From an uncultured Acidobacteriia bacterium (GTDB lineage Bacteria > Acidobacteriota > Terriglobia > Bryobacterales > Bryobacteraceae), in assembly GCA_903876865.1 (NCBI GenBank), contig CAIRBY010000998.1, positions 1-40,299 of the forward strand: a stretch of 40,299 nt of DNA. The letters run 5' to 3'. Position numbers and translations under genes: made by a program. The number at the start of each line of letters is the position of its first letter. Position 1 is the first letter of the stretch. Below are positions 5,208-35,405 of this stretch, one piece after another. The notes below the pieces were generated by a model, which was not told the DNA's origin, made no database searches, and saw only the letters and a list, made by a program, of their open reading frames with translations.

Positions 5208-5238
5208 TCGGGCGCCGGGAGCGTCGCAAGAGCTACTT

Positions 5239-5260
5239 GGACAGGCCAGGAGGCCTGTCC
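5239..5260. repeat. REP/MITE-like perfect palindrome GGACAGGCC-AGGA-GGCCTGTCC flanked by 7-bp direct repeats CTACTTG (5233-5239 and 5260-5266)
   Basis: Direct reading of sequence; 9-bp perfect arms, 4-nt loop, direct repeat on both sides. Confidence 0.7.
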
Positions 5261-12556: not shown

Positions 12557-15500
12557 CTAGAAGCTAATTTTCAGCGCGACCTGGCACTGGCGCGGATTGC
12601 GGGCGGTGGTGATGCGTCCGAAGAGCGCGCTGGTGTTACCGCCGCCCGGGCCCGCCGTATTGTTGGTGGCGGCTGCCGAGAACGTCGTATTCGGATTGCC
12701 GAGATTGACGTGGTTGAGGGTATTGAAGGTCTCGAAGCGGACTTGGAGTCGCATTCGTTCCCCGACACGGAAGTTCTTCATGGTGGAGAGGTCCATATTG
12801 AACAGTCCGGGGTTGAAGACGTTGCCGAGCGTGCGGCCAAGGTTCCCGGCGGCATACAGCGGGGGGTTGTAGAAGATGCTGGTGTCGAACCACTGTTGCG
12901 CGTTGTGGTCGGACTTGTAGGCGTACTGGCCCATGGTGCTGGGGCGGGTGGCGAAGTTATTGTTGCCGCCGGTGACGTACAACGGAGTGCCGGTCTGAAT
13001 CGCGGTGATGGTGTTCAGCTGCCATCCGGCGATCGCTCCGCGCACCCACTTGTTGGCGGGGTCGATCGCTTTGCCCTTGCCGATAGGCAGTTCCCACACA
13101 GCGCTGCCCACGACGCGGTGCGCGATGTTCTGGCAGGAGACGGAGCGCTCCGGCTTCAAATCGTACAACGGATTCTGCCACCCGCCGCACTTGTCGGAGA
13201 CTTCGCTGGCGTAATCGACGCTGGTGTAGGTGCCGATCCCAATACCTTTGGCATAGGTGTAGGAAGCGAGCACCGAGAGGCCGCTGCGCATGCGCTTTTG
13301 GGCGCTGATGATGCCGGCGTGGTAGATCGATTTGCCGACCTGCGAAATGCTCTGCGTCATGGCGCCCAGGTACGGGTAGGGGGTGTAGAGTTGCTTCACG
13401 GAGATGGTGGAGGCGCCCAGGCTGCCGGGAACCTTGCCGGCGTAGGGGTTGGCGACCTGATCGGAGAGAGCCAGGCCCTTCGTGTAGTTCGACGGGTCGA
13501 ACTGATTGAGGTTGATGCCGTTGGATTGAAGGTGCGTGGCGTGGTTACCGGAGTACTGCAATTCCATCAGCCAGGTGCGGCCGAGTTGACGCTGGATCGA
13601 CAGGCTCCATTGCTGCGAGCGTGGCGTGTACTGTCCGGTGGGGACCAGGGTCGCGCCGCCGATCTGGTAGCTGGGTCCGAGCGCCGATCCCAGGGCGAGA
13701 GTGAGAGTCTTGGGAAGTTCCGGGTTGACGAACGGTCCCGTGGAGAGCTTCCAGGCGGGATAGTTGGCGTTAGCCACGTTGAACGGCGTGTTGCCGGAGC
13801 TGAAACCGGTAGAGTTCGGCCCGTAGTTGGGGACGGCCATATAGAACATGCTGTAGCCGCCGCGGATGGAGGTGCGGCCGTTGCCGAAGGCATCCCAGGC
13901 GAAGCCGACGCGCGGGCTGAAATCGAGCTTGTCCCGCACCACCGGCATGACGCCATCGACGTTGCCGTAGAGCATGGCGCCAGGGAGTCCGGTCTGCGAG
14001 TTCATGGTGGTAACCGAGAAATTCGAGCTGCGCCCGTGGGACTCGAAGGCGGGCTGCTGGTAGTCATAGCGCAGGCCCAGATTCAGCGTGAGGCGGCGGG
14101 AGACGCGCCAGTTGTCCTGCACGAAGGGGCTCACGGAGTAGTTCTTGATGGTCTGATTGCCGCCGGAAAAACAGTTGATGCTGCCGCCGGAATAGATGTA
14201 GCCGAGTTCGAATGTGGCCAGCGCGCTGCCGGTGTTGCCGGAGGACTGGGGGTTGCCGGTGAGGCTGGAAGAGGGGTTCCAACTGCCCGAATCGCAAGGC
14301 AGGAAGTTGCCGGTATTGCCCTGGTTGTGGCGGATTTCGCCCCCGGCTTTAACGGTGTGCCGCCCATTGATAATGGTGACGGCATCGAATAGCTGTGAGG
14401 TCAGCCCGGCTCGATAGTTGTAGGTGTTGCCGCTGCCGATGGTAAGGACGCCGAGGTTGAACGCCGGGAAGACATACTGCGGGAAACTCGCCGGCATGCC
14501 GATCTTGCTGGGCCAGTCCTGCAGTGCCGAGGGGTTGGCATAGGTGAAGTACTGCCGCGCCAGGGTCAGGCGGAATTCATTGAGCAGGCGCGGGCTGAAC
14601 GCGTGGGTGTCCGAAGCCATGATGTTGCGCGTCCAATAATTGTCGGTGCGGCCGTTGAAGAGTTGCGGCACGTTGAGCACGCCGCTGGTCAGTTTCGGAT
14701 GGTGGTAGAAGACCATGTAGCGCGCAAAGAACTGGTTCTTGTCGCTGAAACGCTGATCGATGCGCGTGCTGGTCTGATCGCTCTGCGTGCCAGTTCGGGC
14801 CACCTGATAGAAGTTGTTCTGCTGCGTGAACGTGCTGACCGGCGGGGTATTGGGAGCAGCGATAAACTTCAATACATTCACCGCCACCGGGTCGAAGCGG
14901 CTGGAGGGAATGATGTTGCCGGGGAGGGGGGTACGCACGTAGCCGGAGCCGGCTGGGTTGACCTTGGTGGTGTCTGGGTCGTACATGATGAGAGGCACGC
15001 CGGTGCTGGTGAAGTTACCTGGACCGCTGAAATCGCCGGCGCGCTGTTCCATGGTTGGTACGCTGCTGAAACTGGTGGACTGGCCGGCCTGGCGGAAGCC
15101 TTCGTAGTTGAAGAAGAAGAAGGTGCGGTCCTTGCCATTGTAGAGTTTGGGAATGCGTATGGGGCCCGAGATGCTGCCACCGAACTGGTTGTAGCGCAGC
15201 ACGGGGACGGTGAGCGAGAAGGCGTTGCGCGAATCCATCACGTTGTTGCGCATGAATTCGTAGAGCGAGCCGTGCAGGAGGTTGGCGCCACCCTTGGTAG
15301 CTACGTTGACCACGCCGCCGAGGGTGAAGCCGTATTCGGCGGACATTACGATCGACTGGACCTTGAACTCGGCAATGGAATCCACCGCGGGGTTGGCATT
15401 CACCTCGTTGAGAACGGTGTTCATGTTGTTGCCCCCATCGATGGTGAACTGGCTATGGCCGCCGCGCGCGCCGTTGATGGAGATGTCCGCTACTTCATAG

Positions 15501-16030
15501 CCGCGCGAGAGGAAGCCGGCGTTCACTTGGTTGGCGTTGTTGACGACGCCCGGCGTGAGCGTAGCCATGGAGAACGCGTTGCGCCCGTTGAGCGGGAGTT
15601 CGGTGATCTCGCGTTCTCCCACAGCGTTGCCAGAGGTAGCGGTGCTCGTGTCGACCAGGCCAGCGTCGGCCACCACTTCGATTGCCTGCGTGAGCGCGCC
15701 GATCTCCATCCGGAAGTTGACCGTGGCCTTTTGATCGAGTGCGAGGTTGATGCCGCTGCGGATGGACTTCTTGAAGCCCTGCGCCTCCACCGTAACACTG
15801 TAAGGGCCAATCGTGAGCGAGGGCGAAGTGTACAAGCCTTCCTGGTTGGTTTGCGTCCGGAAGGGCACGCCGGTGGCAGTGTTGCTGATCACGATATCGG
15901 CGTTGGCCATGGGGGCGCCGCTTGAATCGGTGACGGTGCCCAGAATCGTGCCGCCGCCCAGCTGAGCAGACAACGGAAGACTGAGCGCGAAGAGTAGAGC
16001 GAGTGCGAGTTTCAACGTGGACTCCTTCAA
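12557..16030 (-). CDS. TonB-dependent receptor with N-terminal carboxypeptidase-regulatory-like domain (Oar-like)
   Basis: 1157 aa; signal peptide; GGGTILGTVTDSSGAPMANADIVISNTATG (CarboxypepD_reg-like), plug ITELPLNGRNAFSMATLTPGV, beta-barrel segments, terminal ...CQVALKISF ending in Phe. Confidence 0.92.
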   Translation of the reverse strand: MKESTLKLALALLFALSLPLSAQLGGGTILGTVTDSSGAPMANADIVISNTATGVPFRTQTNQEGLYTSPSLTIGPYSVTVEAQGFKKSIRSGINLALDQKATVNFRMEIGALTQAIEVVADAGLVDTSTATSGNAVGEREITELPLNGRNAFSMATLTPGVVNNANQVNAGFLSRGYEVADISINGARGGHSQFTIDGGNNMNTVLNEVNANPAVDSIAEFKVQSIVMSAEYGFTLGGVVNVATKGGANLLHGSLYEFMRNNVMDSRNAFSLTVPVLRYNQFGGSISGPIRIPKLYNGKDRTFFFFNYEGFRQAGQSTSFSSVPTMEQRAGDFSGPGNFTSTGVPLIMYDPDTTKVNPAGSGYVRTPLPGNIIPSSRFDPVAVNVLKFIAAPNTPPVSTFTQQNNFYQVARTGTQSDQTSTRIDQRFSDKNQFFARYMVFYHHPKLTSGVLNVPQLFNGRTDNYWTRNIMASDTHAFSPRLLNEFRLTLARQYFTYANPSALQDWPSKIGMPASFPQYVFPAFNLGVLTIGSGNTYNYRAGLTSQLFDAVTIINGRHTVKAGGEIRHNQGNTGNFLPCDSGSWNPSSSLTGNPQSSGNTGSALATFELGYIYSGGSINCFSGGNQTIKNYSVSPFVQDNWRVSRRLTLNLGLRYDYQQPAFESHGRSSNFSVTTMNSQTGLPGAMLYGNVDGVMPVVRDKLDFSPRVGFAWDAFGNGRTSIRGGYSMFYMAVPNYGPNSTGFSSGNTPFNVANANYPAWKLSTGPFVNPELPKTLTLALGSALGPSYQIGGATLVPTGQYTPRSQQWSLSIQRQLGRTWLMELQYSGNHATHLQSNGINLNQFDPSNYTKGLALSDQVANPYAGKVPGSLGASTISVKQLYTPYPYLGAMTQSISQVGKSIYHAGIISAQKRMRSGLSVLASYTYAKGIGIGTYTSVDYASEVSDKCGGWQNPLYDLKPERSVSCQNIAHRVVGSAVWELPIGKGKAIDPANKWVRGAIAGWQLNTITAIQTGTPLYVTGGNNNFATRPSTMGQYAYKSDHNAQQWFDTSIFYNPPLYAAGNLGRTLGNVFNPGLFNMDLSTMKNFRVGERMRLQVRFETFNTLNHVNLGNPNTTFSAAATNNTAGPGGGNTSALFGRITTARNPRQCQVALKISF

Positions 16031-16036
16031 TTTGGG

Positions 16037-17563
16037 TTACTTTTGGTCAACCTTGACCACTAACGGGTATTCCAATGACGTTTGCGCCGGCAGTTCCAGT
16101 GAGAGGCCATCCGCGGCGCGTTTCCAAACGGTACGGGCCTTGTGGCCCAGAATCGAAACTGACGAGATCTCCCGCTTCATAAGCGGGGAGGCCGCGGCGA
16201 GCGATTGAATAGTGAGCGTGTTCCCCGCCGGCGGCGCGAGCACGATGGCGTACAACGTATTCTTTTTCGTGGTGAAGCGAATGTCCTTCCCGGTGTATCC
16301 GGTAACCATTCCGAACGCAGGACCGAGGCCGGTGGTGGGCCCTTCGCCGAAGACCGTCCACGGGCGCGTGCCGTAGATGGCCTCTCCATTGACGGAAAGC
16401 CACTGCCCCATGGCAAGCATGGTGTTGCGGGTCTGCTCCGGAAAGACCCCATCGCCATCGGGCGTGAAGTTGAGAAGGTAAGAGCCGTTCTTGCTGACCA
16501 CGTCGGCCATTTCAGCGAGCAGTTCGGGAGCGGGGCGGAACTTGACGTCCGCGCGCCAGAACCAGTTGTTGGTGGACATGGTGTCGTACTGCCAGGGGGC
16601 GTGAACCACTTTGGCCGGGTCCCAGGTCATGCGCTTCGTGAAAACGGAGATATCCAGAATGCCGGCATTCTCGGGGAAGGATTCGTACTTCCGATTCAGC
16701 ACCACGCCCTGCTTCCATTCGGCGGCACGGTTGTAGTAGTAGGCAGCGAACTTCTGGAGATAGGGCTGGAACGCGGGTTGCTCGATCTGCCAGTCGAAGT
16801 AGAACATCTGCGGGTGATATTTGTCGACCATGTCGGTGACGCGGGCCAGCCACAGCTTCAGGAACTCCTCAGAGGGCGGGATGGCGCGCGGATCGGGCGT
16901 CGTGCGGGCGACCAGCGGCGGGGGCGGCGACTTCAGCGGCGGATCGGCGAAGTACCAGAAGTGCTCTTCGAAGTGCGAGGAGGTGCCGAAGATCATCCCC
17001 TGCTTGCGGATGGCGGCGGACAGATCGGCGAGAAAATCGCGCTTCGGCAGCATCTTGACGGAAGAGGTGTCGGTGAAGCTGGCGTTGTACATGGCATAGC
17101 CGTCGTGATGCTCGCCGACCGGCACGACGAACTTCGCGCCGGTGCGGCGAAAGAGGTCCGCCCAGACGGCCGGATCGAAACCCTTGGGATTAAACGCAGC
17201 CATGCTCTCTTTGTGGCCGAGGCCCTGGGATACCGTCAGCGTGGTGGGGCCCCAGTGGACGAAAAGCCCGAACTTGGCGTCGCGGAACCACTCAGGAGCC
17301 TGGTTGTTTTCGAGCGATGACCATGCGGGTTGGAAGGGGCCCTTGGCGGCGACTTGGTCGACCTTCTTCAGTTGCTGGTCGACGCCAGGATAGGTCCACT
17401 GCGCGGATAGCGGTGCGGCGACGAAGACCAGTGCGGCAAGGGTTCTGTAGTTGGCTCGCCATCTCAATGGCGGGGAGAGCAGGCCGGTTCTCCACCAGCG
17501 CAGGTGATGCAACACACGGCGTAGTGTGATGACCGGAGCAAGCGAGCGGGTTACAGCGCGCAT
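16037..17563 (-). CDS. Alpha-L-fucosidase-like, GH29
   Basis: 508 aa; PEWFRDAKFGLFVHWGPTT, KFVVPVGEHHDGYAMYNASFTDTSS, MFYFDWQIEQ (candidate nucleophile Asp), YLLNFTPDGDGVFPEQT. Strong SD GGAGGTG before ATG at 17563, although the Sec leader begins about 40 aa further in. Confidence 0.88.
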   Translation of the reverse strand: MRAVTRSLAPVITLRRVLHHLRWWRTGLLSPPLRWRANYRTLAALVFVAAPLSAQWTYPGVDQQLKKVDQVAAKGPFQPAWSSLENNQAPEWFRDAKFGLFVHWGPTTLTVSQGLGHKESMAAFNPKGFDPAVWADLFRRTGAKFVVPVGEHHDGYAMYNASFTDTSSVKMLPKRDFLADLSAAIRKQGMIFGTSSHFEEHFWYFADPPLKSPPPPLVARTTPDPRAIPPSEEFLKLWLARVTDMVDKYHPQMFYFDWQIEQPAFQPYLQKFAAYYYNRAAEWKQGVVLNRKYESFPENAGILDISVFTKRMTWDPAKVVHAPWQYDTMSTNNWFWRADVKFRPAPELLAEMADVVSKNGSYLLNFTPDGDGVFPEQTRNTMLAMGQWLSVNGEAIYGTRPWTVFGEGPTTGLGPAFGMVTGYTGKDIRFTTKKNTLYAIVLAPPAGNTLTIQSLAAASPLMKREISSVSILGHKARTVWKRAADGLSLELPAQTSLEYPLVVKVDQK

Positions 17564-17650: not shown

Positions 17651-17694
17651 GTCGACTGACGTTTAGACTAGGCTCGGATAGTCCTAATAGACTA
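17651..17694 (-). promoter_or_regulatory. Composite operator a (upstream of the GH29-TBDR leftward unit)
   Basis: Reverse strand: TAGTC TATTAG GACTA TCCGAGCC TAGTC TAAACG TCAGTCGAC; first site is part of perfect ATAGTC-N6-GACTAT (17678-17695). Confidence 0.85.
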
Positions 17695-17791
17695 TTCGGT
17701 CTGGCTGTCTTTGACCGCAGGGGCAAATGAGGTTCTCCCCTTTATGAGCCAGCGGACCAGGAAGTATGCGATCAGGTGAAGAAAGCCCTTC

Positions 17792-18847
17792 TCACCGCAG
17801 CCAGCCAATCGCTGAGCGCGGTGCAAAGAACGCCGTCCCATGGTGGATGCCGGGGGGCATGGCCAAATCCACGCGATGGGTCCAGTTCTTGAGATCGGGT
17901 GAGGTGGCGAGGTTGATGCCGCTGCCGGCGGGCTCATCCCAGTAAAGCCACCACTTGCCCTGAAAACGGATCAGGCTCGGCCCTTCCGCCATCGCGTGCT
18001 TCGCATCGCTGAACATCGGAGCATTGTCGCCCGCGATCGGATCGGAGACCGGGGTAAATTCGGGCCGGGCCAGATCCAAGCCGGCGTAGGAGATTCTCAG
18101 ATTCCGTCCGGGCATCACCTTGAGGTCGGCGTTGCGTGAGTCCTTGATGACCATGACCCACCGCTTGCCGTCCACGTCGAGATGCATCACAGCGTCGATG
18201 CAAGAGAATCCCTGGTCGAACAATAACCGCGCATCGGAAAATGTGCGGCCATCCGCAGTTCTGACGATGTAGATCCGGTTGTCGTACGGTGACGTGTTGT
18301 CGCCCTTGTTGTCGCTGCCATCGCCGTCGCTCCGCTCCCGCCTGGTGGTGGCGGCGAACAGGATGAAATAGTTCCCGGCCGCGGGATCCCAGTGAATTTC
18401 GGGCGCCCAGACGTTCTCCGGCTGATCCTCTTCGCTCAACGAAGGTGGGAAGGCCTCGACCATCCTCGGCGCAGACCACTTCACCAGGTCCGCCGACTCC
18501 GCATAACCGAAGACGCGTCCCTTCCAGTTCGAAGTCCACACCATCCGGTACAATCCGTTGCGGTAGAGGATGGATGCATCGCGGGTGAGGTTCTGGTCCG
18601 GCCAAGCGGGCGGCGTGAAGATCGGCTTATCGCCGTTGAGCGGAGTGAATCGGATTCCGTCCTGGCTCATGGCGAGATAGACACCTGCCTGCCCGTTGTC
18701 CCGGAAGTAAGTGAACAACAGCGCGTCATGAGAGGGTGGTTGGGCTTGCCCGTGCGGGCAGGCGGCAATTGCCAGTGCGATGGCGGCGAAGATGTTTGGC
18801 CGCAGGTTGACGGACCTGTTCCCCTGGCGGTCTCGACGGATAGTCAT
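17792..18847 (-). CDS. GH43-like glycoside hydrolase, secreted
   Basis: Start MTIRRDRQGNRS...FAAIALAIAACPHGQA at 18847 (RBS GGAG); propeller motifs DGIRFTPLNGDKPIFTPP, TRDASILYRNGLYRMVWTSNWKGRVFGYAESADLVKWS, NVWAPEIHWDPAAGNYFILFAAT, AEGPSLIRFQGKWWLYWDE. Confidence 0.82.
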   Translation of the reverse strand: MTIRRDRQGNRSVNLRPNIFAAIALAIAACPHGQAQPPSHDALLFTYFRDNGQAGVYLAMSQDGIRFTPLNGDKPIFTPPAWPDQNLTRDASILYRNGLYRMVWTSNWKGRVFGYAESADLVKWSAPRMVEAFPPSLSEEDQPENVWAPEIHWDPAAGNYFILFAATTRRERSDGDGSDNKGDNTSPYDNRIYIVRTADGRTFSDARLLFDQGFSCIDAVMHLDVDGKRWVMVIKDSRNADLKVMPGRNLRISYAGLDLARPEFTPVSDPIAGDNAPMFSDAKHAMAEGPSLIRFQGKWWLYWDEPAGSGINLATSPDLKNWTHRVDLAMPPGIHHGTAFFAPRSAIGWLR

Positions 18848-18882
18848 ATGCGTCTCCAACCATGACACGATTGGCGGCGACT

Positions 18883-18926
18883 GCCGTCTGCGGATTGGAC
18901 TAGCGGATTGTAGTCTTAATGGACTA
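18883..18926 (-). promoter_or_regulatory. Composite operator b (upstream of the GH43-like gene)
   Basis: Reverse strand: TAGTC CATTAA GACTA CAATCCGC TAGTC CAATCC GCAGACGGC; first site is part of perfect GTAGTC-N6-GACTAC (18910-18927). Confidence 0.8.
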
Positions 18927-19003
18927 CTACGACCGTTGTCCCGTTCCTATTTCGCCGCGCGAGGCGCACGATTGTTGCCGAATCGCTTCCATCGTGGTAG
19001 CAC

Positions 19004-21961
19004 TTGAGGTTGCCCGTGCCCATTTCCAGAGGAGGTCTTCGACTGGCCGTATTCGCCGCATTGTCGGCGTGCTCTGCGCTAGCTCTTGACCCGAGCCTCC
19101 GGGTCTCGCAGTATCACAAGCAGTACTGGCAGGTGGAGCAAGGGCTGCCCCACAGTTACGTGACGGCAATTGCGCAAAATGCCGATGGCTATCTACTGGT
19201 AGGCACCGATGAAGGCTTGGCGCGTTTCGATGGCCTCAACTTCCGGCCCTTGCCGGCGGACCCTTCGTTGCGCCTGTCGAAGCGCTGGGTCTCGGCTTCG
19301 CTCGTCGCCCGGAACTCCAGTCTCTGGCTCGGCACCTTCGACGGGATGCTGGTGGAACTCCGCAAGGGCCAGGTGCTCAGTAAATACCAGACGGACGGTT
19401 CGGTCTTCGACGTACATCAGGACTCCACGGATTCCGTCTGGTTGAGCACCCGCAACGGCGTGTTTCGCCTGGAAAACGGCAAGCTTCAGGTGGTACCCGG
19501 ACTCGGCCCGCCTCTCGATACATCCTGGAACGTCCTGGCCGCGGGCGACAAGGGTGTGATGTGGGTAGTCACGAGCGCGGGCTTGTTTCGCGCCTCCGGG
19601 GGCTCGATTTCGCAACGCTTGGCCAACTCCCGCGAACTCGGCGATATCCTTACCGTCCTTGCCAGCAACAAGGGAGGACTCTTACTCGGGACCACACGGG
19701 GCCTTTTCCGTTTGGATGTTGACCAAAACAGGCGTCCCGTTCCGGTCGCAGGCGTGGCCGGACCGGTGGTCAGCCTGATCGAGGATCGCGATGGCATCAT
19801 CTGGGCCGGGACTTGGGGCCAGGGGCTGATTCGAGTGACCGGTAATGGGGTGGACCGCTGGACATCGCGGGACGGCTTGCCGGAGGACTTCATCCGCACG
19901 CTGGCGGAAGATGCCGAAGGAAACCTGTGGATTGGCATGCGGAGCGGTGGTCTGGGGCGGTGGAAAGACGGGCGACTCGTCCCCCTTGGACCTCCCGAGG
20001 GGTTGGCCGGCAGTTTCGCCACCACGGTTGCCGCCGACCCCGCTGGAGATCTTTGGCTCGGGACCTGGCGGGGCGGGCTGTACCGGCTGAGAAATGGCGC
20101 CCTGGAGAGCCAGCCTACGCCCCTGCCAACCCTCTACTTCACAGTTCGCGCGTTGGCCTTCGACCGCCTCGGACATCAGTGGATCGGCAACTGGGAAGGG
20201 CTCTTTCAGTTCGATGGGAAGAAATACCAGCACTTCGGCAGCGAGATGAATGCCGCCTATCGGCGAGTCTCCGCGCTACTGTTCGATCGCAGCGGCGCGC
20301 TCTGGGTCGGGACGGCGGATCATGGCGTGTTCCGTTTCCCGGAGGGCCGTCCCACTGCCTCCGTTCCCCCTCCGCTACTACCCGAGACCGAGGTCACCGC
20401 ACTACTGGAGGACTCCGCGGGAAGTGTTTGGGTGGGCACTGCGAAGGGCTTGGTGAAGTTCCAGAATTTCGCATCGCCGACCTGGGCCGGAATCCAGGGA
20501 GTCCCCCCGGACGGCGTGGAGTCGATCTTGGAGGATTCGCGGAAACGGATCTGGGTGTCCACTTCCGAGGGTAGTGCGGCCGTCATCTCCCCGGGCGCCA
20601 CGGTGGTTCTCGACCGGGGGAACGGTATGCCGGGCCACCCGTTGTACCGCATCGTGGAGGCCGCGGACGGATCGTTCTGGGTGAGTTCTCCGAAAGGAAT
20701 CCTGGAGTTGACTGCCGGGCCGTTGGAACAAGTGCTTGCGGGCAAGCGAAAGAAGCTCGATGTGGTGGTTCACGGGCAGGATGATGGAATGCGGACCATC
20801 GAATGCCATGGTCTCTCGCAGCCCGCGGGTGGCAGAGATAAGGCCGGTAACTTGTGGTTCCCAACTGCCAAGGGCTTCGTCCAGGTCCGCGCAGCCGCGG
20901 TTCGGAGCCTCCCGCCTCCCGCTGCCGTTATTGAAGAGGTCAACACCGATTCCGGCGCGCTGCCTCTCGCACCGGAACTGACCTTTAAGGCAGGCGCTCG
21001 CAATATCGAGGTCATCTTCACCAGCCTTCGCTTCTCCAATCCTCGCGCGCTGAAATTCCGTTATCGTCTCTCGGAATACGATCCCGACTGGGTGGATGCG
21101 GGCGGTGAACGCAGTGCCCGCTACAATCAGCTACCACCCGGTCCCCACATGTTCGAGGTTCAAGCCCGCGATCCTCTGGGGGAGTGGAGCCCGTCCGCAA
21201 CCCTGGCCTTCCAGCAGAGCCCGCGGTTCCACCAGACCTGGTGGTTCGTGATGTCGCTGGCGCTGCTCTTTTCTTCCATGTTGTTCGGCGTTTACCGCTG
21301 GCGCCTTCACGCGATGCGCGGCCGCTACGCACTCGTTCTGGAAGAGCGCAACCGCATCGGGCGCGAGTGGCACGACACGCTGGTGGCCGGTTTCTCGGCC
21401 ATTTCGCTGCAACTGGAGGCCGCTATGGCGCGCATGAGAGAGCAGCCGGAACGGGCATCGGAGATTCTGGAGGTGACGCGCAAAATGGTGCATCACTACA
21501 GGGCGGAAGCGCGGCGCGTGATCTGGGATCTGCGGGATAGCCGCCCCGAGGGCGAGAGCCTGATTGCGGCCTTGGAAGGCGAACTCGCTCGAATGAAGGA
21601 GAATCGCGGAATCGAGGGCCGATTGACGGTCACGGGTGAAGCCGTCGAACTGCCTGTGGAGATGCAGCACAATCTCCTGCGAATCTGCCAGGAGGCCATA
21701 TCCAACGCGGTACGACACGGACGTCCATCGCGCGTGGATGTGGACCTTGTCTTTACGGAACTCCGGCTCCGCGCCGCGATTCGAGATGACGGCGCTGGCT
21801 TCCCGGCGGGTCCATCCGCCGAGAGCGCGGGACATTTCGGACTGACGGTGATGCAGGAACGCGCGCGGCGCGTCGGCGGGCAACTGGAGGTCCACAGCCG
21901 CCCCGGCGAAGGCACCGTAATCCAGGCGGAAGTCCCTTTGCCGCGGAGTAAGAACACATGA
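19004..21961 (+). CDS. Two-component sensor histidine kinase: periplasmic Reg_prop propellers, Y_Y_Y domain, TM, HisKA_3, HATPase
   Basis: 985 aa (TTG start); signal peptide; about 14 repeats of the type G.LW.GT..GL.RF.G; FRYRLSEYDPDWVDAGGERSARYNQLPPGPHMFEVQARDPLGEWSPSATLAF (Y_Y_Y); TM WWFVMSLALLFSSMLFGVYRW; ERNRIGREWHDTLVAGFSAISLQLEAA (HisKA_3); NAVRHGRPSRVDV...IRDDGAGF...GHFGLTVMQERARRVGGQL (HATPase). Confidence 0.93.
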   Translation: MRLPVPISRGGLRLAVFAALSACSALALDPSLRVSQYHKQYWQVEQGLPHSYVTAIAQNADGYLLVGTDEGLARFDGLNFRPLPADPSLRLSKRWVSASLVARNSSLWLGTFDGMLVELRKGQVLSKYQTDGSVFDVHQDSTDSVWLSTRNGVFRLENGKLQVVPGLGPPLDTSWNVLAAGDKGVMWVVTSAGLFRASGGSISQRLANSRELGDILTVLASNKGGLLLGTTRGLFRLDVDQNRRPVPVAGVAGPVVSLIEDRDGIIWAGTWGQGLIRVTGNGVDRWTSRDGLPEDFIRTLAEDAEGNLWIGMRSGGLGRWKDGRLVPLGPPEGLAGSFATTVAADPAGDLWLGTWRGGLYRLRNGALESQPTPLPTLYFTVRALAFDRLGHQWIGNWEGLFQFDGKKYQHFGSEMNAAYRRVSALLFDRSGALWVGTADHGVFRFPEGRPTASVPPPLLPETEVTALLEDSAGSVWVGTAKGLVKFQNFASPTWAGIQGVPPDGVESILEDSRKRIWVSTSEGSAAVISPGATVVLDRGNGMPGHPLYRIVEAADGSFWVSSPKGILELTAGPLEQVLAGKRKKLDVVVHGQDDGMRTIECHGLSQPAGGRDKAGNLWFPTAKGFVQVRAAAVRSLPPPAAVIEEVNTDSGALPLAPELTFKAGARNIEVIFTSLRFSNPRALKFRYRLSEYDPDWVDAGGERSARYNQLPPGPHMFEVQARDPLGEWSPSATLAFQQSPRFHQTWWFVMSLALLFSSMLFGVYRWRLHAMRGRYALVLEERNRIGREWHDTLVAGFSAISLQLEAAMARMREQPERASEILEVTRKMVHHYRAEARRVIWDLRDSRPEGESLIAALEGELARMKENRGIEGRLTVTGEAVELPVEMQHNLLRICQEAISNAVRHGRPSRVDVDLVFTELRLRAAIRDDGAGFPAGPSAESAGHFGLTVMQERARRVGGQLEVHSRPGEGTVIQAEVPLPRSKNT

Positions 21962-22584
21962 GCGTACAAACAAGAATCCTGATCGTGGAAGATCAATACT
22001 TCTTCCGGCTCGCATTGCGCACCACGATCGAGGCGAGACCAGATATGCAGATCGTGGGCGAGACGGACAAGGGGGACGAAGCGCTGGCCCTGTGCAGACA
22101 GTTGCTTCCGGATGTGGTCATCATGGATCTGCGACTCCCGGGCCTGTCTGGCTTCGAAGCGATTGACCTGATTCACCGTGAACTTCCAGGGATCGGGGTG
22201 CTGGTGCTCAGCAACTATGAGGGCAGCGAGGACGTGCACCGGGCGCTCGCCTCCGGCGCGCTGGCCTATCTGACGAAAGACGCCGGTGCCGACGAACTGG
22301 TGAAGGCCCTGCTCAGCGTACGCGCCGGACACCGCTATGTACCGGCATCCATCGGCGCCCTGTTGGCGGCGCGCGTGCCCAGTTCCGCATTGACGGACCG
22401 GGAAGTGGATGTGCTGCGCCTGCTGGCCAAAGGACGGAGCAATCGGGAAATCGGCGAGAAACTGGGCATTGCCGAGAATACCGTGCGCATCCATGTCAGC
22501 CGGATACTGGACAAGCTGGGAGTCGCTGACCGCACACAGGCCGTCTTGCTGGCGATTCAGAATGGCCTTGTGCACGTAGACTGA
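21958..22584 (+). CDS. NarL/LuxR-family response regulator
   Basis: 208 aa; receiver VEDQYFFRLAL...VVIMDLRLPG...LVLSNYEG...YLTKDA; C-terminal LTDREVDVLRLLAKGRSNREIGEKLGIAENTVRIHVSRILDKLGVADRTQAV. 4-bp ATGA overlap with the kinase gene. Confidence 0.96.
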   Translation: MSVQTRILIVEDQYFFRLALRTTIEARPDMQIVGETDKGDEALALCRQLLPDVVIMDLRLPGLSGFEAIDLIHRELPGIGVLVLSNYEGSEDVHRALASGALAYLTKDAGADELVKALLSVRAGHRYVPASIGALLAARVPSSALTDREVDVLRLLAKGRSNREIGEKLGIAENTVRIHVSRILDKLGVADRTQAVLLAIQNGLVHVD

Positions 22585-22593
22585 CCGCACGGG

Positions 22594-22637
22594 TAGTCTT
22601 TTCAGACTATGTTTCTGTAATCCAAACCTCAGACGAC
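22594..22637 (+). promoter_or_regulatory. Composite operator c (upstream of the rightward TBDR)
   Basis: TAGTC TTTTCA GACTA TGTTTCTG TAATC CAAACC TCAGACGAC; first site is part of GTAGTC-N6-GACTAT (22593-22610). Confidence 0.85.
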
Positions 22638-22704
22638 AGCGTTACCGCGATGTGACATCGTTAATGAAACTTTAGCGGTAAATAAGTTTCGAGGTTATGT
22701 TTCC

Positions 22705-25700
22705 ATGTTGAAAATCGCTCTTGCTCTGCTGCTGTTTTGCAGCCTGCCACTCGCCGCCCAACAGGGCCGCGGCACGATTCTGGGGACGGTCACCGATTCC
22801 AGCGGCGCCGCCGTCCCATCCGCCAAGGTGACCATCACCAACACTGGCACCAACTTCACCTTCCAGGCTGAGTGCAGCCAAGAGGGTTTCTACACGACTC
22901 CTGCGATTCCCGTCGGGGCCTACACAATCGCTGCCGAAGGCGCTGGCTTCAAGAAGACCGTGCGCACCGGTATTACCCTGCAGGTAGACCAACATGCGCA
23001 GGTCAATCTGCTGCTGGAGATTGGCGCCGTGAGCGAGTCGGTGGAAGTCAGCGGACAGGCGGAACTCGTGGACACCAGCACCGGCACGATCGGCAAGGTG
23101 ATTGAGAACCGCCGCGTGATGGACCTGCCGGTGAACGGACGCAGCGCGTTCGCTCTCGCGCAACTCGCGCCGGCCGTGAAATCGACGCAAGGCAACAGCG
23201 AGGGCTTCCTTGACCGCGGCCTTTCGGTAAGTCTCATCAGCATCAACGGCGGTCCCAGCGCGGTCAATGCGATGGAGATCGACGGCGGCACGAACAACCA
23301 GGCGTACTATAACGAGGCCAACGCCAATCCCGCAACCGACTCGATTCAGGAATTCAAGGTCCAAAGTAATACCATGTCCGCCGAGTTCGGCTTCACGCTG
23401 GGAGGCGTGTTGAACGTAGTGACCAAGGCGGGCACCAACCAGGTTCACGGTTCCTTGTACAGCTTCATGCGCAACAGCGCGCTCGATTCGCGCGACACCT
23501 TCGCGCTGACCAAGGGTCAGTTCGAATACAACCAGCCCGGCGGTTCATTGGGCGGCCCGGTGCGGATTCCGAAGATCTACAACGGCAAGGACAAGACGTT
23601 TTTCTTCTTCAACTACGAGCAGTACATGTACCGGACCAGCGCCACGAGTTTCTCGACGGTGCCGATCGACACCTGGCGGCAGGGCGATTTTTCCGCCCTG
23701 AAGAACTCCTCGGGAGTCCCCATTGTCATCTACGATCCGAACACCACCGTGGCGAATCCCAGCGGTTCCGGGTACGTGCGCACACCTTTTGCCAACAACG
23801 TAATTCCGACGAACCGGCTGGACCCGGTAGCGCAGGCGGCGCTGAAGATCCTTCCCCAGCCCAACGCGACGCCCATCAATGCCTTCGCCCAGACCAACAA
23901 CTTCTACCAGATCAATCGCAACGCGACGGATTCGAACCAGTACACGGTGCGGATCGACCACCGCTTCTCCGATAAGAACCTGCTGTTCGGGCGGTTCATG
24001 TTCTTCGAACACAATCCGTATCCGCTCGCGAGCAACTTCGTTCCGCTGGAGGCGAGCGGAAGCCGAACCGACGACCTGCAGAACAAGAATGCGGTGATCT
24101 CGGACACGTACACTTTCACGCCGCGCCTGGTCAACGAATTCCGGGCCGTGCTGATGCGAAATTACCTCAATTTTAAAGTCACCTCCGCGGATCGGAGTTG
24201 GCCGCAAAAGCTGGGCCTGCCGAATACGCCGCAGGACGTTTTCCCGGCCTTCGAGGTCGGCATCGCCGGGCTGAATCCGCAGGGCACTTACGGCCAGCGC
24301 GGCTCCACCACCCCGCAGTTCGTGGATACGATCTCCTACATCGCCGGATCGCACACGCTGAAGGCGGGTGTTGATTTCCGCAGGATGCTGGGAGACAACT
24401 TGCAGAAGAGCTATCCCTCGGGACAGTTCCAATTCACCGGCGGTCTGACCAACAATCCCCAGATACCCACGAATACCGGTTCCCAACTCAGCCAGTTCCT
24501 GCTGGGAGCGGTGAGCACCGCTTCGGTGGGGACGTATATGGGCGAATCCGAACGCGGATATTCCCTCAGCGCGTTCCTGCAGGACGACTGGAAAGTATCC
24601 CGCCACCTGACCATCAACCTCGGCCTGCGCTACGACTACCAGGAACCGTCCCACGAGATGAACAAGGGGCTCTCCAACTTCAACCCGTACGCCAAGAACC
24701 CTGTCACCGGCCTGTTGGGAGTGATGACCTACGCGGGATTGGACGGGGCGCCGCTTTCGCCGTTTGCCTCCGAGAAGCACGACTTCGCCCCGCGCATTGG
24801 TTTCAGCTTCGACCCGTTTGGCGGGGGCAAGACGGTAATTCGCGGGGGCTATGCCCTGTTCTTCGCCAACGTCTTCAACGTTTCGTTCTTCGGCAACACG
24901 GCCGGCTTCGCCAACACCAGCACCAGCTACACGCCGGCTGGAAACAATACCGCCTTCACCGCGTTCAATCTTAAGGACGGCCTGCCCTTCGCACCCACAC
25001 AGCCGCTGGGCGCGAAGCTGGGGCCCAGTTACCTGATCAACACTGGCGTCAATTACGACCAAGGGAACCAATCGGTGCCGTACTCCCAGCAATGGAACCT
25101 CTCGGTTTCGCATCAGATTCTGGGAGGCATCGTGCTTGAAGGCAGTTACTCCGCCAACCGCGGCACGCACCTGGTAGCCGGCGGTTACGACATGAACCAG
25201 TTGGGCATGCAGTATCTGAGCCTGGGGCTCTCGTTGCAGGATGCGGTGCCGAACCCCTATGCCGCCACCATCCCGGGCAGCAGCGCCACCATCACGCGTT
25301 CGCAGTCTCTCAAGGCTTACCCCTACTACACGAGCATCAACGTGCGCAATCCGCATCTGGGCAACTCCATGTACAACGCCATGCTGCTCAACGCCGAGAA
25401 GCGCTTCGCCAGCGGCCTCACCATGCTGGTTTCCTTTACCGGGAGCAAGCTGATCAGCGACAGCGTGGTCAGCCCGCTGAATTACATCGGCGAGCAGACT
25501 GGGATCGTCGGCTACCAGAATGGGGCATACAACCGCCGGGCGGAGCGGTCGGTCGATCCGACCGACGTTCCGCGCCGGTTGGTGATCAGCGGACTGTACG
25601 AGTTGCCTTTCGGACCGGGCAAGATGCTCCACAGTTCGAGCGGCATTGTGAACAAGGTGATCGGCGGCTGGCAGATCGGCAGCATCACCACGATCCAGAA

Positions 25701-26115
25701 GGGACAACCTCTACAGGTGACTGGCGCCAATAACTTCCTGGCCAGCCGCCCGAATTCGACCGGTGTGAGCGCCAAACTGAGCAACCCGACCCAATTGCAG
25801 TGGCTGGATCCGACAGCATTCGTCAAGCCTCCCGACTACACTTATGGAAACGTGGGCCGGATGCTGCCCGATGTGCGCGGTCCCGGCATCTTGAGCCTGG
25901 ATGCATCGCTGGTGAAGAACACCCGCTTTGGGGAACGCGCCAACCTGCAATTCCGGGCCGAAGCCTTCAACTCGATCAACTGGACCAACCTGAGCTACCC
26001 CAATACCAGTTTTTCGCCCGCCACCAACGGACAGAATGCCAACGCGTTGTTCGGCCGCATCACCTCCGACCGCGGGCCGCGAAACGTGCAACTCGGATTG
26101 AAGCTGTCTTTCTAA
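22705..26115 (+). CDS. TonB-dependent receptor with N-terminal carboxypeptidase-regulatory-like domain (paralogue of 12557-16030)
   Basis: 1136 aa; MLKIALALLLFCSLPLAAQQGRGTILGTVTDSSGAAVPSAKVTITNTGTN; plug RRVMDLPVNGRSAFALAQLAPAV; C-terminus ...RNVQLGLKLSF. Confidence 0.93.
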   Translation: MLKIALALLLFCSLPLAAQQGRGTILGTVTDSSGAAVPSAKVTITNTGTNFTFQAECSQEGFYTTPAIPVGAYTIAAEGAGFKKTVRTGITLQVDQHAQVNLLLEIGAVSESVEVSGQAELVDTSTGTIGKVIENRRVMDLPVNGRSAFALAQLAPAVKSTQGNSEGFLDRGLSVSLISINGGPSAVNAMEIDGGTNNQAYYNEANANPATDSIQEFKVQSNTMSAEFGFTLGGVLNVVTKAGTNQVHGSLYSFMRNSALDSRDTFALTKGQFEYNQPGGSLGGPVRIPKIYNGKDKTFFFFNYEQYMYRTSATSFSTVPIDTWRQGDFSALKNSSGVPIVIYDPNTTVANPSGSGYVRTPFANNVIPTNRLDPVAQAALKILPQPNATPINAFAQTNNFYQINRNATDSNQYTVRIDHRFSDKNLLFGRFMFFEHNPYPLASNFVPLEASGSRTDDLQNKNAVISDTYTFTPRLVNEFRAVLMRNYLNFKVTSADRSWPQKLGLPNTPQDVFPAFEVGIAGLNPQGTYGQRGSTTPQFVDTISYIAGSHTLKAGVDFRRMLGDNLQKSYPSGQFQFTGGLTNNPQIPTNTGSQLSQFLLGAVSTASVGTYMGESERGYSLSAFLQDDWKVSRHLTINLGLRYDYQEPSHEMNKGLSNFNPYAKNPVTGLLGVMTYAGLDGAPLSPFASEKHDFAPRIGFSFDPFGGGKTVIRGGYALFFANVFNVSFFGNTAGFANTSTSYTPAGNNTAFTAFNLKDGLPFAPTQPLGAKLGPSYLINTGVNYDQGNQSVPYSQQWNLSVSHQILGGIVLEGSYSANRGTHLVAGGYDMNQLGMQYLSLGLSLQDAVPNPYAATIPGSSATITRSQSLKAYPYYTSINVRNPHLGNSMYNAMLLNAEKRFASGLTMLVSFTGSKLISDSVVSPLNYIGEQTGIVGYQNGAYNRRAERSVDPTDVPRRLVISGLYELPFGPGKMLHSSSGIVNKVIGGWQIGSITTIQKGQPLQVTGANNFLASRPNSTGVSAKLSNPTQLQWLDPTAFVKPPDYTYGNVGRMLPDVRGPGILSLDASLVKNTRFGERANLQFRAEAFNSINWTNLSYPNTSFSPATNGQNANALFGRITSDRGPRNVQLGLKLSF

Positions 26116-26125
26116 CTAAGCCGAT

Positions 26126-26163
26126 GGAGGCGGGCCGCGGCCCATGTGCGCGTGCCCGCCTCC
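26126..26163 (+). other. Intercistronic stem-loop between the TBDR and GH29 genes
   Basis: Perfect 10-bp arms GGAGGCGGGC (26126-26135) and GCCCGCCTCC (26154-26163), 18-nt loop; no following T-tract. Confidence 0.7.
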
Positions 26164-26212
26164 GGTTCGGATTCGCCGCTCCGGCAAGTCCCCGAATTTG
26201 GAGTTAGCCCCT

Positions 26213-27604
26213 ATGTCCGCACCGCGTTTCTCGCGCCGCGACGCCTGCATCGCCTTGACCGCGGGCCTGGCGGCTTCCGCGGCGTCATCCGCCCAGGATG
26301 CCGCCGCAATCAACAAGGACCTGGAGTCACGCAAGAACGTCCTTGTCCATACGACTCATCCCGAAGCCCAGTGGTTCCCAAATGCCGGACTCGGCCTCTT
26401 CATGCACTGGGGCATTGCCAGCGTGCACGGAAATATCGACATCTCCTGGGGCATGATGCATGGCATGGGAAGTGGCGTCAAGATCACGCCGGAGGAATAC
26501 TTCCAACTTGCCGAGCGCTTCCGGCCCGAGCACTGGGATCCCGACAGGATGATGGCGGCCGCTGCCAAGGCCGGCTTCCGTTACGCCGTCCTCACTACCA
26601 AACATCACGAAGGCTTCGCCTTGTGGCCAAGCGCGCACGGGGACTTCAATACCCGCAAGTACCTTGGGGGGCGGGATCTGGTGGCTCCCTACGTAGAGGC
26701 CTGCCGTAAGCACGGACTCAAGGTCGGCTTCTACTACTCGCCGGGAGACTGGTACTACGCCCGCCAGTACATGTCTTTCAATTACCGCAGCGCCCACTGC
26801 TGGCAGAACACCGGACTGGCCTGCCGTCCCGAGGTCCCGGACTACGACACGCGCTTCCAGACGGTGACGCTACCGGTGCGTCCCCCCGAATTCGAGCAGG
26901 CCTACCGGGATTACAAGCGCGGCCAGATCCGCGAACTGCTGACGCGCTACGGCAAGGTGGACCTGCTGTGGTTCGACATGGCCGACGTGGTGATGACTCC
27001 CGCCGAGATTCGCGCGTTGCAGCCAGGGATCGTCATCAACAACCGCATGGGTTCCGATACCGGGGACTTTCTGACGCCGGAGGGGGCCTTCCCCAAGGAA
27101 AAGCCAACCGGCTGGTGGGAATTGTGCAGCATCTGGAACTCACCCAACTGGGGATATGTTGCCAAAAACGAAGAGCGGTACCTGCCTCTCGACTCCTTTC
27201 TCAGCACACTGGCCAAGGTTCGCGCCTGGAACGGCAACCTGCTGATCAACGTTGGTCCGCGCCCCGACGGCGCCATGCCCAAGCCGTTCTGGGAGGGGAT
27301 GGAACAACTCGCCGGTTGGATGAAACACAGCGGTGAAGCCATCTTCGGCACTGCAGCCGGACCTTGGCCGGGTGCCAGTGAATTCCCGGTTACCGTGAAA
27401 GGCAACCGATGGTACGTACACGTGCCGTCATCGTTCCGTGAGCCTGCTCTCTCCGTCAAAATGCCCGCTGCGCCAAAGTCCGCGCGGCTGCTGCGTACCG
27501 GCTTGGCGCTGCCGATCACTTTTGGCGCGGGGGCCGCCCGCGTGGAGTTGCCTGTGCCGTCGCGCAGCGAACTGGCAGATGTCGTGGAACTTACGGTGTC
27601 CTGA
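26213..27604 (+). CDS. Alpha-L-fucosidase-like, GH29
   Basis: Start MSAPRFSRRDACIALTAGLAASAASS (Tat-like leader) at 26213; [48 protein letters not shown] (candidate nucleophile), NGNLLINVGPRPDG. Confidence 0.92.
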   Translation: MSAPRFSRRDACIALTAGLAASAASSAQDAAAINKDLESRKNVLVHTTHPEAQWFPNAGLGLFMHWGIASVHGNIDISWGMMHGMGSGVKITPEEYFQLAERFRPEHWDPDRMMAAAAKAGFRYAVLTTKHHEGFALWPSAHGDFNTRKYLGGRDLVAPYVEACRKHGLKVGFYYSPGDWYYARQYMSFNYRSAHCWQNTGLACRPEVPDYDTRFQTVTLPVRPPEFEQAYRDYKRGQIRELLTRYGKVDLLWFDMADVVMTPAEIRALQPGIVINNRMGSDTGDFLTPEGAFPKEKPTGWWELCSIWNSPNWGYVAKNEERYLPLDSFLSTLAKVRAWNGNLLINVGPRPDGAMPKPFWEGMEQLAGWMKHSGEAIFGTAAGPWPGASEFPVTVKGNRWYVHVPSSFREPALSVKMPAAPKSARLLRTGLALPITFGAGAARVELPVPSRSELADVVELTVS

Positions 27605-27632
27605 CCCATGGAACCAGATGTCTGGCGGCGAA

Positions 27633-27676
27633 TAGTCTTTTTAGACTACCAAGGGGTAGTCCTAAGCTCAGTCGAC
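27633..27676 (+). promoter_or_regulatory. Composite operator d (upstream of the GH16-FAD oxidoreductase unit)
   Basis: TAGTC TTTTTA GACTA CCAAGGGG TAGTC CTAAGC TCAGTCGAC; first site is part of ATAGTC-N6-GACTAC (27632-27649). Confidence 0.85.
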
Positions 27677-27758
27677 TGCCAGCTCGCCCTGTGTCAAAGT
27701 AAGGCGTCGTCGGTACGCCCGCAACAAGTGTGAATGGATGGGTTGGAGTGATAAGACC

Positions 27759-28520
27759 ATGTCGTTAGCTAAGATCTTCCCCGGGGTTCGGCCCATTCTC
27801 TTTGCTGCGCTCGCCGCGTTGTCCGCGGGCGTTCTTTGCGCCGAACAACCAGCCGGCTACAAACTGGCTTGGGCCGATGAGTTCGGCGGCGCCACGCTCG
27901 ATACCGCCAAATGGGGCTACCGCACCGATTCCAAGCACTGGAGCACGCAGAAACCGGAGAACGTATCGATCTCTAGCGGCTTCCTGACGCTCACGCTCAA
28001 GAAAGAGAAGGCGGGTGACAAGGAATACACCGGCGCGGGTGTCATCAGCAAACAATCCTTCCGCTACGGCTACTACGAAACACGCTTCCGCATCCAGGCC
28101 GGCAAAGGGTGGCATTCCTCGTTCTGGATGATGGGCCACGATGGATCCGGCGGTACCGGCACCACGGCCACCGAACTGGAACTGGACGTCATCGAAAATG
28201 ACTCCATCGACCTCACCGGCTACGGCGTCAACACTCACAAGTGGCAGGGACAGCACACCAGTCATGGTGGTAAGCGCGTGGCAACTCCGCCTCTCTCCGA
28301 CTTCCACATCTACGGCTGCGAGTACACGCCGCAGGAAGTTAAATATTACTTCGACGGCCAGGTGGTGCAGACCGTCGACATCTCCAAACTCCCGCAGGGT
28401 AGCCTTCACATCTGGCTTACCTCGATCGCATCCCAATTGGGTAAGACCGACGCGGTCGATGACACCAAACTGCCGGGGCGCGTCGAGTACGACTATGTCC
28501 GCTTTTATACCAAGCAGTAG
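27759..28520 (+). CDS. GH16-family endo-acting glycosidase, secreted
   Basis: ORF track start 27738; ATG at 27759 has RBS GGAG and starts MSLAKIFPGVRPILFAALAALSAGVLC. KLAWADEFGGATLDTAKW, FRYGYYETRFRI, catalytic-type motif ELDVIE. Confidence 0.92.
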   Translation: MSLAKIFPGVRPILFAALAALSAGVLCAEQPAGYKLAWADEFGGATLDTAKWGYRTDSKHWSTQKPENVSISSGFLTLTLKKEKAGDKEYTGAGVISKQSFRYGYYETRFRIQAGKGWHSSFWMMGHDGSGGTGTTATELELDVIENDSIDLTGYGVNTHKWQGQHTSHGGKRVATPPLSDFHIYGCEYTPQEVKYYFDGQVVQTVDISKLPQGSLHIWLTSIASQLGKTDAVDDTKLPGRVEYDYVRFYTKQ

Positions 28521-28529
28521 TGCCCGACC

Positions 28530-30707
28530 ATGAAGCCGATTCTTACAATTGCCCTGTTCTTCTGCACCCATCTCGGCGCCCAACAGGTACTGGTGGAGGC
28601 CGAGTCCTTCACCGCCCTGGGTGGCTGGTCGCTCGATCAGCAGTACATGGATCAAATGGGCTCGCCATTTCTGCTGGCGCACGGACTGGGAAAGCCGGTT
28701 GCCGACGCGCGGACCGAGATATCCCTTCCGACCGCCGGACGCTACCGGATTTGGGTTCGTTCCCGCGATTGGGTGGCCCGCTGGAAAGTGCCGGGCGCTC
28801 CTGGAAAGTTCCAACTGCTGGTGGACGACGCCCCGCTCGCGACCACATTTGGCGCGGAAGGGGAAGCCTGGCACTGGCAGGACGGCGGCACCGTGCGCAC
28901 GACGGGATTGAAGGTCCGCCTGGCACTTCATGATCTTACGGGCTTCGATGGCCGCTGCGATGCGATCGTGTTCTCGCCGGACGTGAACTGGAGACCGCCG
29001 GAGGGCTCCGCGCTGGCGGAGTTCCGTCGCAAGCAACTCCCCATGCAGGGCCGCACGGAAGATGCAGGCAACTACGATCTGGTGGTCGTGGGCGGCGGAA
29101 TGGCAGGGATTACGTCGGCCGTGGCGGCGGCACGTCTGGGCTCCAAAGTGGCTCTGATTCAGGACAGGCCCCTACTCGGCGGCAACAGCAGTTCGGAAAT
29201 CCGCGTGTTCCCCGGCGGCAGCATTCTGGTTGGCCCAAACCCCGGGCTGGGGGCGATCGAACACGAACTCGACCCCGGCGGCGTGGGCGGCAATGCCAGG
29301 GATGGCGCCTATTATGAGGATGAGAAGAAAAGATACGTCGTAGCCGCGGAAAAGAATATCAAGCTCTTTCTCAATCTGCACGCCCTTCGCGTGGAAAAGT
29401 CCGGCAGCCGGATTGTCGCCGTGGTGGCGCGTGACGTACGCACCGCGCGCGACCTCCGCTTCTCCGGCGCTCTCTTCGTCGACTGCACGGGCGACGCCAC
29501 GATCGGCGCCCTCGCCGGCGCCGATTTCCGGGTGGGCCGCGAAGGCAAGGACGAAACCGGTGAGACCTTGGCGCCCGGCAAAGCCGACAAACAAGTAATG
29601 GGTACGACGTTCATGTGGTACGCCGAAGAATCGGATCGTCCTGCGACTTTCCCTGATTGTCCTTGGGCAGTGGAGTTCAACGAGCGTACCGCCCAACGCA
29701 CCACCAAGGGCGATTGGGACTGGGAACTGGGCATGAACCAGGACCAGATTGCGGATGCGGAGGCCATCCGCGATTACGCGTACCGCGCGTTGTACGGCAA
29801 CTGGAGTTTCCTGAAGAATCACGCCGCGGGTCGCGCCGCCTACGAGCGGCAGCGCCTGAGTTGGGTCGCCTACGTCGCTGGCAAACGTGAGTCGCGGCGC
29901 CTGCTGGGAGATGTCGTGCTCCGCGAGCAGGACATCGTCAATCAGGTGCCCTACCCGGACGGCTCGGCGACCGCAACCTGGGGTATCGATTTGCATTACC
30001 CGAGTCCGGAGAACTCCACACAATTTCCTGACGGCGCATTCCGTTCGATCTACCAATCGGAAAAACACCAACCCTACGCCATCCCCTATCGCTGTTTCTA
30101 CTCGCGCAACGTGGAGAATCTGTTCATGGCGGGCCGCAATGTCAGCGTGACGCACGTTGCGTTGGGCACGGTGCGCGTGCAGCGCACGACGGCCATGATG
30201 GGTGAGGTCGTCGGCATGGCTGCATCGCTGTGCCGCAAGTACCAGACCACGCCGCGCGGCGTGTATCAGGCGCATCTGGACGAGCTCAAGGAGCTGATGC
30301 AGAGGGGCGTCGGCAAGGAGGAGGGTATACAGGAAGTGCGGCAACTCCCCGCCGGATTCTCCGTCTCCGCCGACGGCGCAATCTGGAAGCCCTCCATTTC
30401 GAGAAGCCTGGTTCGAGTCTGGTACCGGGCCGTCGCCGATCCGCAGGGTGACCCCGCGGCCACGCTCAAAGTGATCTACGATGGCACGTTGGCGGTGCGC
30501 CGTCTCGACTTGACGGAGAGTGGCGACCGGTGGCTGGACCTGGGGACTTTTACCTTCTCCGGTAACGGGCTGGACTGCGTGCGGCTGGTGCGCGCCGCGG
30601 GCGCCCGCGCTCCGCTGCCGGACGATGTGAAGTTCGACGTGTTTCGCCCCGAGGGTGACACCGTGCGGACTACGGTAATTCTGAAGCCCGCGGTCCAAAA
30701 AAAATGA
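28530..30707 (+). CDS. Exported FAD-dependent oxidoreductase (FAD_oxidored type) with N-terminal carbohydrate-binding-like domain
   Basis: 725 aa; leader MKPILTIALFFCTHLGAQQ; VLVEAESFTALGGWSLDQQYMDQMGSPFLLAHGLGKPVADARTEISLPTAGRYRIWVRS; dinucleotide fold DLVVVGGGMAGITSAVAAARLGSKVALIQDRPLLGGNSSSEIRV. Confidence 0.87.
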   Translation: MKPILTIALFFCTHLGAQQVLVEAESFTALGGWSLDQQYMDQMGSPFLLAHGLGKPVADARTEISLPTAGRYRIWVRSRDWVARWKVPGAPGKFQLLVDDAPLATTFGAEGEAWHWQDGGTVRTTGLKVRLALHDLTGFDGRCDAIVFSPDVNWRPPEGSALAEFRRKQLPMQGRTEDAGNYDLVVVGGGMAGITSAVAAARLGSKVALIQDRPLLGGNSSSEIRVFPGGSILVGPNPGLGAIEHELDPGGVGGNARDGAYYEDEKKRYVVAAEKNIKLFLNLHALRVEKSGSRIVAVVARDVRTARDLRFSGALFVDCTGDATIGALAGADFRVGREGKDETGETLAPGKADKQVMGTTFMWYAEESDRPATFPDCPWAVEFNERTAQRTTKGDWDWELGMNQDQIADAEAIRDYAYRALYGNWSFLKNHAAGRAAYERQRLSWVAYVAGKRESRRLLGDVVLREQDIVNQVPYPDGSATATWGIDLHYPSPENSTQFPDGAFRSIYQSEKHQPYAIPYRCFYSRNVENLFMAGRNVSVTHVALGTVRVQRTTAMMGEVVGMAASLCRKYQTTPRGVYQAHLDELKELMQRGVGKEEGIQEVRQLPAGFSVSADGAIWKPSISRSLVRVWYRAVADPQGDPAATLKVIYDGTLAVRRLDLTESGDRWLDLGTFTFSGNGLDCVRLVRAAGARAPLPDDVKFDVFRPEGDTVRTTVILKPAVQKK

Positions 30708-34085: not shown

Positions 34086-34089
<4 letters not shown>
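32971..34089 (+). CDS. Five-bladed beta-propeller glycosidase (GH43/GH117-like), Tat-type leader
   Basis: Start MTPLTRRRWLGAAALLATGQAA at 32971 (4-bp overlap with upstream stop); [69 protein letters not shown]. Confidence 0.78.
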
Positions 34090-35393
<1,304 letters not shown>

Positions 35394-35405
35394 AAGGAAG
35401 TGCTA

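Follow-up and report, generated by a model that had tools for sequence, protein, structure and literature searches.

Four copies of a 44-bp element in a 40,299-nucleotide contig of an uncultured Bryobacteraceae bacterium (C998; the whole contig is called the window below) probably serve as activator operators and promoters of the adjoining two-component system, a Reg_prop kinase and a NarL-type response regulator (RR), which would turn on genes for polysaccharide degradation (probability roughly 0.8, as judged from sequence). In the proposed mechanism, the kinase would sense a periplasmic oligosaccharide, as its COG3292-like propeller suggests, and phosphorylate the RR, whose gene follows and overlaps that of the kinase. 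Two RR dimers would then bind side by side, one to a perfect box near -66.5 and the other to a degenerate box (TARTCCAAANC-TCAG) near -42.5, whose right arm merges into a weak -35, with an extended -10 another 17-18 bp on. Each 44-mer would thus make up the first half of a promoter that depends on an activator, at which RR placed against the -35 would recruit RNA polymerase. The units switched on would be the receptor, GH29, GH43 and GH16/FAD operons of the locus and an FAD/GH16/GH31/MFS/GH29 operon on another contig, C552.

Table 1. Elements, regulatory genes and glycan genes in the window (targets are predicted)
Feature	Position	Strand	Remarks
TonB-dependent receptor	12557..16030	-	CarboxypepD_reg, OMP_b-brl_4
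GH29 alpha-L-fucosidase	16037..17563	-	target of site a
Site a	17651..17694	-	distal box 17694-17679; proximal box/-35 overlap 17670-17650; -10-like GATAAA 17632-17627; target, GH29-TonB receptor-GH106 unit
GH43	17792..18868	-	target of site b; mechanical ORF limits
Site b	18883..18926	-	distal box 18926-18911; proximal box/-35 18902-18882; TGT-CATGGT -10 18864-18859; target, GH43; kinase gene diverges from it
Sensor kinase	19004..21961	+	Reg_prop propeller, Y_Y_Y, HisKA_3 (His790 in WHDTL), HATPase_c
Response regulator (RR)	21958..22584	+	NarL/VraR-type; receiver with VIMDL Asp; GerE HTH, helix AENTVRIHVSRIL
Site c	22594..22637	+	distal box 22594-22609; proximal box/-35 22618-22638; TGA-CATCGT -10 22656-22661; 9 bp past RR stop; precedes TonB receptor-GH29 unit; copy conserved beside RR orthologs
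TonB-dependent receptor	22705..26115	+	target of site c; homolog after site in most relatives
GH29 alpha-L-fucosidase	26144..27604	+	
Site d	27633..27676	+	distal box 27633-27648; proximal box/-35 27657-27677; TGT-CAAAGT -10 27695-27700; target, GH16-FAD-FAD-GH43-MFS-GH29 unit
GH16	27738..28520	+	target of site d
Two FAD-dependent oxidoreductases	28530..32974	+	PF12831
MFS transporter and GH29	33882..36704	+	

The kinase and RR genes overlap by 4 bp, and their products are the only regulators seen in the window with Pfam, in line with the preliminary description, which took the only regulator there to be of the NarL/LuxR type. The RR combines a NarL/FixJ-type receiver (PF00072, 4.6e-24) with a GerE/LuxR-type HTH (PF00196, 9.7e-21); its closest solved proteins are VraR (6.9e-35) and NarL (1.4e-31). 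HisKA_3 and HATPase_c domains, a phospho-acceptor His790 and the VIMDL Asp of the receiver are all present, as predicted for a partner kinase and its RR. By Pfam, the locus encodes GH2, GH43/32-like, GH16 and GH106 proteins, two TonB receptors and three GH29, and further a GH43, a GH16, two FAD oxidoreductases and an MFS transporter. This gene content suggests a polysaccharide containing fucose and rhamnose as the likely substrate. TonB receptors are present, and SusD was absent from the window proteins scanned, so that no SusC/SusD pair was seen. Within a glycosidase operon on the minus strand (2706-5321) lies a gene for an 871-aa protein with no Pfam or NCBIfam match.

The window sequence matched the four 44-mers exactly at the coordinates and strands first reported. 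TAGTC-N6-GACTA occurred four times in the window, compared with none in 100 dinucleotide shuffles, and five times in the whole genome (G000; 7.27 Mb, 1052 contigs). Allowing at most one mismatch, the 29-bp composite TAGTC-N6-GACTA-N8-TAGTC also had five matches genome-wide, the window's four and one at C552:30111 (chance expectation, about 0.004 exact copies per genome); matches with 2-3 mismatches were no more frequent than those of a reversed-pattern control. All five sites adjoin glycan genes; the many copies unrelated to such genes that would have counted against the preliminary description were not found in the genome-wide search. The fifth site precedes an operon for an FAD oxidoreductase (79% identical to that at 30704-32974 of the window), GH16, GH31, MFS (81% identical to its window counterpart) and GH29 (79%); no kinase or RR homolog was found on C552. 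The "local regulon" of the preliminary description thus holds for the four copies in the window, but with a member on another contig it is defined by its motif and is not purely local.

Other parts of that description fared as follows. The offsets 0, 11, 24 and 35 recurred in all five genome copies and in relatives, and a profile of 16 sites bore out the lack of conservation in the 8-bp linker. The TAGTC and GACTA arms of the proposed RTAGTC-N6-GACTAY palindrome stood, but in copies c and d its outer R...Y pair falls short of strict complementarity. The right-hand TCAGWCGAC, the last 9 bases, is a looser consensus than described (GCAGACGGC in copy b, GCAGTAGAC in the fifth copy). The second half is indeed a degenerate copy of the box; its right arm, however, is best read as an overlap with a -35, followed by an extended -10, and the 44-mer is better taken for the first part of a promoter that depends on an activator than for an operator alone.

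In the 16-site profile, the distal box (TAGTCYWTTWRGACTA) reads TAGTCYW-TT-WRGACTA, a 16-bp inverted repeat of two 7-bp half-sites around a 2-bp centre, which is the 7-2-7 format of NarL-type sites. The proximal box starts 24 bp after it and reads TARTCCAAANC followed by TCAGACGAC; its right arm, TCAGWCGAC, overlaps a weak -35-like [AT][CT]GAC. An extended -10, TGN-CANNGT (TGNCANNNT), followed at a 17-18 bp spacer in 13 of the 16 sites (-35 at element offsets 39-44, -10 at 62-67), compared with 0.25 in shuffles (maximum 3); the 16 include three pairs that are near-copies downstream, giving an effective n of about 13. Numbering the last T of the -10 as -7 puts the box centres at about -66.5 and -42.5. 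By the rule derived from the composite sites, an extended -10 should begin 38 bp past the first base of the proximal box, and among 10 single-box sites outside its derivation, 8 had TGNYA with the hexamer at 37-39 (shuffles 0.21, maximum 3), although the paralogs concerned are relatives of one another and do not count as independent events. Site a has GATAAA without TG, and the sites in G145 and G226 also have no clear TGN. The transcript predicted from site b would have a very short leader, of about 5 nt; translation of GH43 probably begins at an ATG near 18847 and not at 18868, the GTG that sets the mechanical ORF limit. Upstream of TonB receptor genes, the leaders in the window (22660-22710) and several relatives share a GAGACTTCGAGGTCT-like stretch with a possible ribosome-binding GAGGT.

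The position of the proximal box, abutting or overlapping the -35, is also compatible with an RR that represses, or acts both ways, and blocks the promoter at -42.5 until the kinase signals; NarL both activates and represses. The promoters themselves are weak, with a poor -35 and C at the first position of the -10, and a scan for consensus sigma-70 promoters found nothing at the four window sites, which is expected of weak activator-dependent promoters and does not prove them. Activators typically bind at positions such as that of the perfect distal box, upstream at about -66.5, and activation by NarL is known from sites at -44.5, -67.5 and -77.5 (PMC7419079). We therefore consider repression unlikely.

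The composite was present in 9 of 237 genomes of the family. In 8 of these, the sites lie beside such glycan genes, and all 8 genomes belong to the 11 whose RR homologs are closest (hypergeometric 8e-13, ignoring relatedness). The match in the ninth, G036, was rejected as chance: no related or similar genes are nearby and its centre is not AT-rich. No composite was found in about 297 genomes of the class outside the family, in a class-wide sample. A strict pattern searched across all GTDB genomes returned only two records, Umea1_bin-0121 (Acidobacteriia) and a Candidatus Solibacter from Lac Pavin, because it required TCAG and full Y/R symmetry.

Comparison of the intergenic regions beside orthologous kinase-regulator pairs placed the element 3' of the RR gene in 9 of 12 RR-clade genomes (G000, G227, G125, G202, G206, G209, G226, G145 and G146; near copies in G226, G145 and G146), followed by a TonB receptor gene or a GH16/FAD operon. 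In G067 the site lies one gene further on, G208 has only the proximal box and its promoter, and in G207 the RR contig is without an adjoining site while two sites sit on two other contigs. After the site in G202 and G206 (L037/L038), a start resembling a TonB receptor leader seemingly stops soon and is followed by GH16/FAD; perhaps the receptor gene was lost and its promoter retained. One contig of G207 (C3, L039:9491-9970) encodes a 127-aa, receiver-only relative of the RR, 52% identical and without an HTH, in which the conserved Lys region LTKDA is changed to LPADA. Upstream of this gene is a box, TAGTC-N6-GATTA, and the TAG of a second box is the gene's own stop codon. The protein is possibly a degenerate or a feedback receiver.

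In a tree of 85 RRs, all those with the TAGTC operator fell in one clade (support 97/89). Sister clades have a different 16-bp inverted repeat at the same place 3' of the RR: a TAGGACATTTGTCC-like box goes with helix EKT (G057, G109, G110) and a TATGACATTTGTCATA-like box with helix EGT (G070, G103, G112), though the EKT boxes do not mark one side of a single branch. Perfect TA boxes occurred 3' of 13 of the 85 RRs (0.29 in shuffles), and none occurred in the stretches around the RR starts. This co-divergence is confounded by shared ancestry, the clades and related paralogs not being independent events. The genome under study also has a second kinase/RR pair (RR 51% identical, helix EKT), followed by the box TAGGTCATTTGTCCTA and a TonB receptor; the pair is split over the overlapping ends of contigs C681 (L094) and C276 (L160), and an apparent second copy of this box was rejected, the overlap making one locus most likely. 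In paralogs of G202 and G206 (L081:10245, L082:8800; helix EKTAKIH), TAGTCCATTTAGACTA lies across the RR stop codon; these fall outside the main operator clade, and the box there is possibly due to chance.

Could another DNA-binding protein, encoded elsewhere, occupy the boxes, with the nearby RR a bystander? Binding by the RR is read here from sequence, and C552 carries a site without a kinase or RR homolog. The site nevertheless tracks the RR clade across genera, being confined to genomes with that clade, and sits 3' of the RR gene; sister clades have different boxes there, and the geometry is that of NarL-type dimers. A foreign binder appears even less likely to us than repression, and the earlier proposal of tandem dimer sites for the 21958-22584 protein gains support from the same observations. 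Least probable by far is an RNA hairpin, a terminator or a mobile or repetitive element, to which an inverted repeat in intergenic DNA might point: folding energies equal those of shuffles (z 0.03 to -1.1), the boxes have no Rfam match and no terminator-like site, only five copies exist genome-wide with weaker matches at control level (which also excluded chance), and the second box and promoter spacing are conserved while the 8-bp linker is not.

With the RR as the binder, the sister clades hint at a readable operator code in the Solibacter-like family, a tentative proposal that we hold at somewhat less than even odds. The operator of each Reg_prop-kinase/NarL-type RR paralog would sit immediately 3' of the gene for that paralog, centred at about -42.5 relative to the promoter that follows. 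The residue before TVR, where the recognition helix begins, would go with half-site bases 3-6: N with TAGTC, K with TAGGAC and G with TATGAC. One clade would have gained the perfect upstream copy at -66.5.

The arrangement resembles that at E. coli ogt, where NarL dimers bind tandem 7-2-7 sites at -44.5 (abutting the -35) and -77.5 (PMC7419079): in both, one of two 7-base inverted repeats with a 2-bp centre lies by the -35 and the other upstream. Unlike at ogt, the half-site here is TAGTCYW rather than TACYYMT, the boxes are 24 rather than 33 bp apart, the genes concern glycans, the -10 is extended and the proximal box shares sequence with the -35. The VraR, LiaR, DevR/DosR and RcsB regulators of the NarL/FixJ family likewise consist of a receiver and a GerE HTH, VraR being the best solved relative, but differ in signals and regulons, and their half-sites differ from the TAGTC box.

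In the polysaccharide utilization loci of Bacteroides, hybrid regulators (HTCSs) likewise have a COG3292-type propeller/Y_Y_Y periplasmic kinase beside TonB receptor and glycosidase genes, and site copies before local and distant operons; in B. thetaiotaomicron, HTCSs with the same sensor type have AraC-type domains that bind direct repeats (PMC3878776). An HTCS carries kinase, receiver and AraC HTH in one polypeptide, whereas here kinase and regulator are separate proteins from separate genes, the HTH is of the NarL-type GerE kind, the repeats are inverted and no SusD was found. A propeller sensor paired with AraC-type direct repeats in Bacteroides thus seems to be paired here with NarL-type tandem inverted repeats. 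We found no described regulator-operator pair for Acidobacteriota glycan loci in the open-access literature; the mechanism is of a known kind, and the operator family and its parallel divergence with the regulators appear to be undescribed.

Acidobacteriota abound in soils and lakes, most of them are uncultured, and what is known of their use of glycans comes largely from gene content. The present analysis gives a precise candidate regulator-operator pair, a candidate five-unit regulon and a way to read the operators of paralogous systems. If the operator code is true, genome sequences could be used to read the operators, and with them the regulons, of many such systems in uncultured Acidobacteriota.
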